Of a DNA stretch of 12,692 nucleotides, positions 1,418 through 5,551 are shown in pieces. The stretch comes from an uncultured Sutterella sp. Lineage in GTDB: Bacteria > Pseudomonadota > Gammaproteobacteria > Burkholderiales > Burkholderiaceae_F. Positions within the stretch are counted from its first letter, which is position 1; every line of letters starts with the position of its first letter. The position numbers and the translations under genes were made by a program. The stretch covers positions 1-12,692 of the forward strand of contig URYO01000019.1 of NCBI GenBank assembly GCA_900552195.1. Direction: 5' to 3'. The notes below the pieces were generated by a model. The model saw only the letters and a list, made by a program, of their open reading frames with translations, was not told the origin of the DNA and searched no databases.

Positions 1418-1708
1418 ATGTCGTACTCGTTCACTGAAAAGAAGCGTATTCGGAAAAGCTTTGCCAAGCGTCCGAGCGTACTTGAAGTGCCTTCCTTACT
1501 GGAAACGCAGTTGCATTCCTACCACGAATTTTTGCAGGCAGATGTTCCCGCTGCAGAGCGCCGTGATGAAGGTTTGCAGGGTGCATTTAAATCCATCTTC
1601 CCTATCGTCAGCCACAACGGTTTAGCCAGGCTTGAATTTCAGGAATATATTTTAGACGATCCTGTCTTTGATGTCTCTGAATGTCAGCTTCGCGGACTGA
1701 ATTATTGA
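1418..1708 (+). CDS. rpoB: RNA polymerase beta subunit, N-terminal part before an in-frame stop
   Basis: This reads 96 residues from [19 protein letters not shown] to CQLRGLNY and then hits TGA. It is the normal N-terminus of the beta subunit: E. coli begins [19 protein letters not shown] and has the equivalent CQIRGVTY before SAPLRVKLRLVI. The segment covers the start of the beta protrusion. The ATG at 1418 is supported by GGAG at 1409-1412 and by alignment with the family start; the frame is open further upstream to a GTG at 1352, but that extension is unlike RpoB. The frame after the stop is the same frame as the rest of rpoB (1802-5551), so the whole gene is 1418-5551, 1378 codons including both stops, a normal betaproteobacterial length. 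Alone, this fragment could not function. Confidence 0.85.
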
Positions 1709-1714
1709 TCTCGC
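1706..1714 (+). other. In-frame TGA and local sequence disruption in rpoB
   Basis: Codon 97 of rpoB is TGA, followed by TCT CGC. Flanks read CQLRGLNY, then stop-Ser-Arg, then [20 protein letters not shown], all in one frame. The family has Tyr-Ser/Ala-Ser/Ala-Pro-Leu-Arg here, so both the stop and the Arg in place of the conserved Pro deviate. The shifted frame at 1711-1716 reads TCG CCT (Ser-Pro), so a two-base gain before it and a two-base loss after it would also explain the pattern. TGA is used as a normal stop for rplJ and rpoB in this window, so a changed genetic code is excluded. Sequence or assembly error is the likeliest cause. Confidence 0.9.
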
Positions 1715-1801
1715 CTCAGAGCAAAAGTACGTCTTGTTATTTTCGACAGGGACCAACCCAAGCAGTCTACTGTAAAAGAGATCCGCGAGTCAGAAGTTTA
1801 C

Positions 1802-4800
1802 ATGGGTGAAATCCCTTTGATGACGAAAAAAGGATCTTTCATCATCAACGGTACCGAGCGCGTTATTGTATCTCAGCTTCATCGTTCTCCGGGCGTATTT
1901 TTTGAGCACGATCGCGGCAAGACACACAGCTCCGGAAAACTGCTGTTCAGCGCCCGTATTATTCCGTACCGCGGCTCTTGGCTCGACTTTGAATTCGATG
2001 CGAAAGACATTCTTCACTTCCGTATCGACCGTCGCCGCAAGATGCCCGGAACCATCATGCTCAAAGCATTGGGCATGACACCGGAAAGCATTCTGAAGCA
2101 GTTCTACGAATTCGATCACTACACACTGACCCAGGACGGCGCCACGCTCGAGATCATTCCGTCTCGTCTCCGCGGTGAAATTGCCGCTTTTGATATTAAA
2201 GATCCGGAAGGCAAAGTTATTGTTGCCAAGGATAAGCGTATCAATGCCCGTCACGTTCGTGAAATCGAAAAGCTCGGCATTACCGAACTTCCGGTTCCGC
2301 TTGACAACCTCATCGGTAAGGTCATCGCTACGAATCTGTATGACGAAGATTCCGGTGAAGTCGTGGCCAACGCCAACGATGAAATTACTCCGGAACTTCT
2401 TGAGAAGATCCGCGAGCACGGCATCGATTCTTTCGATACGCTGTACATCAACGAACTGAACCGCGGTCCGTACATTTCCGACACTCTGAGACTGGACGAA
2501 ACTCCTGATCAGCTGTCCGCACGTATTGCGATCTACCGCATGATGCGTCCGGGCGAACCGCCTACAGAAGAAGCTGTTGAGACATTGTTCCGTCGTCTGT
2601 TCTTCGATCCCGAAACATACGATCTGTCCCGCGTCGGCCGCATGAAGATTAATTCCCGCTTCGACCGCGGTACCGAAACCGGTCCGATGACGCTTGAACC
2701 GGAAGACATCATCGATACGATGAAGGCTATCGTTCAGCTTCGCAACGGCGAAGGCCAGGTTGACGATATTGACCACTTGGGCAATCGTCGCGTCCGCTGT
2801 GTCGGTGAATTGACAGAAAACCAGTTCCGTTCCGGTCTTGTTCGTGTCGAGCGTGCCGTTCGTGAACGTTTGGGACAGGCCGAATCCGACAATCTGATGC
2901 CGCATGACCTGATCAACAGCAAACCGATCAGCGCAGCTATTCGCGACTTCTTCGGTTCTTCTCAGCTGAGCCAGTTCATGGATCAGACCAACCCGCTGTC
3001 TGAAATCACGCACAAGCGCCGTATTTCCGCATTGGGCCCGGGCGGCTTGACTCGTGAGCGCGCAGGCTTCGAAGTTCGAGACGTGCATCCGACTCACTAC
3101 GGTCGTGTCTGCCCGATTGAAACGCCTGAAGGTCCGAACATCGGTTTGATTAACTCTCTGGCTCTTTATGCGCGTCTGAACGACTACGGTTTCCTTGAGA
3201 CACCGTACAGAAAAGTGATCGACGGTCACGTAACCAACGAAATCGCCTACCTCTCTGCAATCGATGAAGGCAACTACATTATTGCTCAGGCTAACGCTTC
3301 CATCGATGACAAGGGCAACCTGAGCGACGAGCTCGTCAGCTGCCGTGATAAAGGCGAATTCGTCCTGATGCGTCCCGAACGCGTTCAGTACATGGACGTG
3401 GCTCCGGCACAGATCGTTTCCGTTGCTGCTTCCCTGATTCCGTTCCTGGAACACGATGACGCGAACCGTGCTTTGATGGGTTCCAACATGCAGCGTCAGG
3501 GCGTTCCCTGTCTCCGTCCGGAAAAACCTGTTGTCGGTACGGGCATCGAAAGAACGGTTGCGGTTGACTCCGGTACGACTGTTCAGGCAGAGCGCGGCGG
3601 TGTTGTTGACTACGTCGACGCCAACCGTATCGTTGTTCGTGTAAATGACGAAGAAAACGTCCCCGGCAGAGTTGGTGTGGACATTTACAACCTTCAGAAA
3701 TTTACACGTTCCAACCAGGGTACGAATATCAACCAGCGTCCTATCGTCAACCCCGGCGACCATATCGCCAAGGGCGACGTGATTGCTGACGGTGCTTCGA
3801 CCGATCTCGGCGAACTGGCATTAGGTCAGAATATGATCGTTGCCTTCATGCCGTGGAACGGATACAACTACGAAGACTCTGTGATGGTGAGCGAAAAAGT
3901 GGTTGCTGATGACCGTTATTCTTCCATCCACATTGAAGAGCTTTCTGTTCAGGCCCGTGATACCAAACTCGGCAGCGAAGAAATTACGCGCGATATTTCG
4001 AATCTGAGTGAAAACCAGATCAACCGTCTCGACGAATCCGGCATCGTTTACATCGGTGCTGAAGTCAAGGCCGGTGACGTTCTGGTCGGTAAAGTGACTC
4101 CGAAGGGAGAAACTACACTGACTCCGGAAGAGAAACTGCTTCGCGCTATCTTCGGTGAAAAAGCCAGCGACGTTAAGGATACTTCTCTGCGCGTCCCGAG
4201 CGGCATGGTCGGTACCGTTATCGACGTTCAGGTCTTCACACGTGAAGGCATCGAACGCGACAAACGCGCCCAGTCCATCATTGACGATGAACTGAAGCGT
4301 TACCGCACCAACCTGAATGACCAGTTGAGAATTGTTGAGCGCGATGCTTTCGAACGTCTGGCTCGTCAGCTGATCGGCAATGTTGCTCAGGGCGGTCCTG
4401 ACGGCTTAGGCAAGGGCAAGAAAGTCACTAAGGAATACCTCGACGGCCTCAATGTTCACAAGTGGTTTGACATCCGTATGGCTGACGAAGAGCTGCAGAA
4501 GCAGATCGAAGAAGTCCGCATTTCCTTGGAAGCCAAACGTAAAGAGTTCGACGAAGCTTGGAACGAAAAACGCAAGAAACTGACTCAGGGCGACGAACTG
4601 CCGACAGGCGTTCAGAAGATGGTCAAGGTTTATCTAGCTGTTAAGCGTCGTCTGCAGCCCGGTGACAAGATGGCCGGTCGTCACGGCAACAAGGGTGTGG
4701 TTTCCCGCATCACTCGTGTCGAAGATATGCCTTTCATGGCCGACGGCAGACCTGTTGACATTGTTCTGAACCCGCTGGGCGTGCCTTCCCGAATGAACAT

Positions 4801-5551
4801 CGGTCAGGTTCTTGAAGTTCACTTGGGCTGGGCTGCTTTCGGTTTGGGCTGGAGAATTGCTGAAATGCTCAAGCACGAGCGCAGCAAGCAGGTCGCAGAG
4901 ATCCGTGAGTTCTTGAACACGATTTACAACAAGAGCAGCGGTAAGAAGGAAGACTTTGATTCTCTGACCGATGACGAAATCATCGATCTGGCTAAACACC
5001 TGAAGAAGGGTGTTCCGTTCGCAACCCCCGTGTTCGACGGCGCAAGCGAAAGCGACATCCGTGAGATGCTCAACCTTGCCTTCCCGGAAGAAACCGCGAA
5101 GAAACTGCACCTGACTCCTTCCAAGACTCAGGCCCAGCTCTTTGACGGACGCACCGGCGACGCATTTGACCGTCCTGTTACCGTCGGCGTGATGCACTAT
5201 CTGAAACTGCACCACTTGGTCGACGACAAGATGCATGCTCGTTCTACCGGTCCGTACTCTCTGGTTACACAGCAGCCTCTCGGCGGTAAAGCTCAGTTCG
5301 GCGGTCAGCGTTCCGGTGAAATGGAAGTCTGGGCGCTTGAAGCTTACGGTGCCAGCTATGTCCTGCAGGAAATGCTTACTGTTAAGTCTGACGACGTGAC
5401 GGGACGTACAAAGCTCTACGAAAACATTGTCAAGGGCGATCACGTGATCGACGCCGGAATGCCGGAATCCTTCAACGTTCTCGTTAAGGAAATCCGCTCT
5501 CTGGGCATTGACATTGATTTAGACCGTGATAAGGAATCTTCTAAAAAATGA
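1802..5551 (+). CDS. rpoB: RNA polymerase beta subunit, main body of interrupted rpoB
   Basis: This is the bulk of the beta subunit, which forms one pincer and much of the catalytic centre of RNA polymerase. The ATG at 1802 is only the first Met after the internal stop (MGEIPLM, internal in all homologues) and has no convincing ribosome binding site; codons from 1709 also belong to the protein. In full-gene numbering the rifampicin pocket, [20 protein letters not shown] and RISALGPGG, carries Asp522, His532 and Ser537, the sensitive-type residues matching E. coli 516, 526 and 531. [14 protein letters not shown] has the active-site lysines at about 1084 and 1092. The C-terminal clamp region has [20 protein letters not shown] and [19 protein letters not shown]. 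It ends overlapping rpoC by four bases (ATGA), so the two subunits are probably translationally coupled. Confidence 0.97.

Follow-up and report, generated by a model that had tools for sequence, protein, structure and literature searches.

The rpoB gene of an uncultured Sutterella sp., which encodes the RNA polymerase β subunit, carries an in-frame TGA at codon 97 in a draft contig. This TGA is most likely not a real feature; judged from sequence comparison, the gene appears to be an ordinary rpoB with a probable one-letter error. We consider it very probable that a wrong base entered the consensus of the contig and that the organism's own rpoB is intact, with cysteine at residue 97. Sequencing or assembly error was also the first choice of the initial annotation, and it is the best-supported reading, the codon differing by a single base from a same-species genome (G001) and the stop being absent from all other sequences compared.

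The stretch of DNA analyzed, here called the window, is 12,692 nucleotides long and contains rplJ, rplL, rpoB, rpoC, rpsL, rpsG, and the start of fusA, gene names being taken from the initial annotation, gene order, and sequence. The rpoB frame begins with the ATG at 1418, is unchanged on both sides of the TGA at 1706–1708, and stays open after codon 97 up to the normal stop (TGA, 5549–5551), which overlaps the start of rpoC. The window sequence bears out the initial annotation both on the absence of a frame change around codon 97 and on TGA as the normal terminator of rplJ and rpoB.

Table 1. Features of the window bearing on the interrupted rpoB gene
Feature	Position	Strand
rpoB, RNA polymerase β subunit; 1377 codons plus stop, broken by one in-frame TGA	1418..5551	+
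Site of an inverted repeat that is perfect in G001 (7-bp arms, 6-base loop); window base 1708 breaks the repeat	1705..1724	+
Codon 97, in-frame TGA; G001 has TGC (Cys) at this codon	1706..1708	+
TCT CGC CTC AGA (Ser-Arg-Leu-Arg); same in G001, native sequence	1709..1720	+
Second difference of the same type from G001 (C in G001, A in window); silent, codon 104	1729	+
ATG, codon 129, restart proposed in the initial annotation; without strong ribosome binding site	1802..1804	+
Codon 1299, Ser in window; Phe invariant in sequences examined	5312..5314	+

Comparison with a same-species genome

G001, the nearest genome among those compared, shares 85% of sampled 31-letter words with the window and is 99.8% identical to it across the full 12,692-base alignment, the differences being 25 substitutions and a single 2-base gap. 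The rplJ-rplL-rpoB-rpoC-rpsL-rpsG-fusA cluster is an ordinary bacterial one, its gene order and rpoB length (1377 codons) being the same as in G001; what distinguishes the window copy from an ordinary bacterial rpoB is the in-frame TGA at codon 97 together with serine at the invariant residue 1299. The 22 coding substitutions comprise 17 silent changes, four amino-acid changes, and one that creates the stop. For the most part, the remaining differences resemble normal variation between strains, and the contig does not appear obviously error-filled. A search for rpoB in the G001 genome returned one match, so that the second intact copy listed as an option in the initial annotation finds no support in this relative. 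At codon 43 of rpsL (10212), the window has lysine and G001 arginine; since arginine at this codon is a known streptomycin-resistance change, it is G001 and not the window that looks altered there.

Codon 97 differs from G001 by one substitution, at base 1708 (TGC to TGA), while codons 98–103 show none: the sequence that follows, TCT CGC CTC AGA GCA AAA, is identical in both, and the next difference is the silent one at 1729. The initial annotation had described local scrambling, with two of three codons wrong, because Ser-Arg stands after the stop where relatives have Ser/Ala-Pro. It had further taken a Ser-Pro legible in a shifted frame at 1711–1716 as the trace of two bases gained and two others lost in compensation, or alternatively had invoked a few substitutions. 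The paired gain and loss is ruled out, there being no shifted stretch against G001 and only base 1708 differing across codons 97–103. The alternative came nearer, although the few substitutions reduce to one in codon 97.

The residues of this clade account for the remainder of the claim. A set of 112 rpoB loci was assembled, of which 111 could be aligned; two of them (L003 and L033) are one gene and another (L002) is G001's own, leaving 109 distinct rpoB genes besides that of G001. The contig scan yielded at least 80 rpoB loci, all at 73% identity or less among the matches listed. Across the 111 aligned loci, residue 97 is Ala in 62, Ser in 24, Cys in 15, Gly in 8, and His and Gln in one each; residue 98 is Ala in 50, Ser in 46, Val in 6, Lys in 5, Cys in 3, and Thr in one; and residue 99 is Pro in 72, Arg and Ala in 16 each, and Ser in 7. 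At residues 97–99, the two remaining genus genomes have Cys-Ser-Arg in G003 and Cys-Ala-Arg in G002, and Arg at residue 99, present in 16 of the aligned loci, is by this comparison native to the clade. Given that Ser-Arg-Leu-Arg is native in G001 and Arg99 occurs in the genus, the shifted-frame Ser-Pro is a coincidence. The comparison with close relatives that the initial annotation called for finds the site open, as a sequence error predicts, but with Cys-Ser-Arg or Cys-Ala-Arg in place of the expected Ser/Ala-Pro. The initial annotation drew on relatives with Ser/Ala-Pro, whereas this clade has Ser-Arg, and it is the comparison with distant relatives that made a normal sequence look scrambled.

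A stop found only in the window among the sequences searched

A stop at codon 97 was found in none of the 111 aligned rpoB loci and in none of the 117 large RpoB proteins covering the site among the best 120 of 8000 scored. Two full-length protein clusters of the same species, P0121 (296 member sequences) and P0122 (1500), have Cys97, as does P0123; the site is therefore intact in same-species sequences, namely G001 and these three clusters, as expected if the window carries a consensus error. A further same-species sequence from another contig, P0001, is a 118-residue fragment whose frame is shifted from residue 94 on. Its tail matches the shifted reading of G001 and not that of the window; because it is readable only in this way, the P0001 contig must have C at both 1708 and 1729.

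At the amino-acid level, the RpoB of the window differs from that of G001 by the stop at 97, D416, and S1299, all three of which are absent from P0121, P0122, and P0123, where G001 is matched instead; relative to the window RpoB, P0121 shows one further difference and P0122 four. Residue 416 is variable, and with Asp in 2 of 111 loci, D416 is unremarkable. Residue 1299, in contrast, is Phe in all 105 loci that reach the site (6 do not) and in all 120 proteins listed, the best 120 of 8000 scored. The serine at codon 1299 is probably a second base error in the rpoB of the window, and that an essential gene should both contain a stop and lack an invariant residue points to base errors in the contig, a dead allele being less likely. 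The practical lesson is one of caution: before a stop inside an essential gene of a draft contig is attributed to recoding or splitting, it should be compared with the nearest genome.

A possible source of the probable miscall

A miscall arising from shallow depth or from sequence context would have put A for C at 1708, and a small hairpin in the native sequence possibly promotes such a miscall. In G001, the site sits in a perfect inverted repeat, TTGCTCT-6-AGAGCAA (locus L032, 4077–4096), whose pairing is broken by the window base. The G001 fold at the site, computed on a stretch one base off that of the window, has a z of −2.06, and a minus-strand GGC, read from the sequence, ends four bases before the site. 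According to the available portion of one report, Illumina miscalls follow GGC and inverted repeats, with GGC usually lying four bases before the first error, a setting like that of the window site with its G001 inverted repeat and its minus-strand GGC at four bases; the same portion describes GGC alone as an unreliable predictor of error-prone positions (PMC3622629). The error contexts stressed in the part of a second report that was consulted are 3-mers ending in GG (PMC4787001), unlike the window site, which lacks a GG-ending 3-mer and is directly preceded on the minus strand by AGA.

The fit of a context-dependent miscall to this site is suggestive only. Perfect repeats of this size number 15 in the G001 stretch, overlapping ones being counted apart, against a shuffle mean of 4.4, and GGC is common, which makes the hairpin argument a weak one. 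The two C/A differences (1708 and 1729) lie 21 bases apart, a distance that is unremarkable when all 25 substitutions are considered (64% of simulations) and only mildly unusual for the 7 transversions (7% of simulations).

Alternative explanations

An unlikely explanation, though the least improbable of the alternatives, is that the stop is a true nonsense mutation from a minority or dying lineage, or from a single DNA molecule, that was assembled as the consensus. Such mutants must arise, since 388 of the 12393 single-base changes of the G001 rpoB give a stop, and the occurrence of the stop and S1299 in one gene is a possible pattern for a dead allele. However, rpoB is an essential gene, G001 yields one rpoB match, and nonsense-mutant cells without another copy would not propagate; moreover, only at very low depth would a rare allele be expected to prevail in the consensus, and the remainder of the contig is under normal constraint. 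Considerably less probable is a real stop bypassed in the living strain, whether by reading through the TGA, by means of a suppressor tRNA, or by restarting at 1802 so that β is made in two pieces. The frame is open on both sides of the TGA, most of rpoB is otherwise conserved, and an ATG is present at codon 129, but release factor 2 (prfB) is found in 3/3 genomes of the genus, TGA ends rplJ and rpoB, and restart at 1802 would drop residues 97–128 without a strong ribosome binding site. The absence of a good site before 1802, asserted in the initial annotation, was confirmed by eye, only a weak ribosome-binding-like stretch preceding this ATG. In addition, position 129 is Leu and not Met in 5 of the 110 loci covering it, and no same-species protein in the full-length range (1377–1446 residues) among the 120 listed starts at 1802, although clustering at 90% could hide one. 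It would be surprising for an essential polymerase gene to rely on readthrough or on a two-piece β subunit, as a real but bypassed stop would require. A naturally split rpoB, already doubted in the initial annotation, was rejected: the split is not conserved in relatives, 111/111 aligned loci being open through codon 97, and the start signal at 1802 is weak. Reassignment of TGA to an amino acid was rejected on the same evidence of prfB in 3/3 genus genomes and of TGA as terminator of rplJ and rpoB.

That codon 97 encodes selenocysteine in place of cysteine is the remotest of these explanations and scarcely credible. The homologous codon in G001 is TGC, and cysteine is the usual partner of selenocysteine; nevertheless, SelA was found in 0/3 genomes of the genus, as compared with 16/41 genomes searched, and site 97 tolerates Ala, Ser, Gly, His, and Gln. 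In the three genus genomes, 43 weak matches to tRNA-Sec were obtained, one of them (G003) above the family cut-off, and the best four are serine tRNAs; control genomes proved equally unspecific, with matches in 14/14 and 5 above the cut-off. Folding just after the TGA revealed nothing beyond chance (z 0.38 for 1703–1752 and −0.17 for 1709–1790), in agreement with the earlier statement that no selenocysteine-type hairpin follows the stop, and an Rfam scan of the window returned nothing at gathering score. The doubt that the initial annotation cast on selenocysteine thus holds when tested in relatives, and a selenoprotein was rejected on the lack of SelA in the three genus genomes, the serine-type tRNA matches, and the lack of a hairpin in the window.

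Fragments and artifacts in related sequences

A breakage hotspot at codons 92–97 was considered because P0001 shifts from residue 94 and another fragment, P0002, ends at 92, but no hotspot could be shown. P0002 covers the N-terminal 92 residues of RpoB from the same species and represents 40 member sequences on 15 contigs. The RpoB fragments analyzed were the best 120 of 442 found in a search that favors fragments of that length; 68 of these 120 end in native sequence, at positions spread from bin 85–89 to bin 165–169, and 52 carry a foreign tail longer than 3 residues, with breaks ranging from residue 93 to residue 162. In P0059, P0093, P0104, P0110, and P0116, the tails (such as SLIHI, DRKSTRLNSSH, EIGRASCRERV, and CLLYTSRCV) look like translated sequencing adapters, a sign of how many public fragments are artifacts.

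Larger proteins show irregularities of their own. P0125, P0126, P0127, and P0128 are singleton 1444-residue RpoB clusters that match the same species to approximately residue 1312 and then continue with the C-terminal tail of another bacterium, and by their sequences are probably chimeras whose parts were joined within a conserved block during assembly. P0124, of 1446 residues, runs from the end of a same-species RpoB into the start of RpoC, indicating that another contig has a frame error where rpoB meets rpoC.
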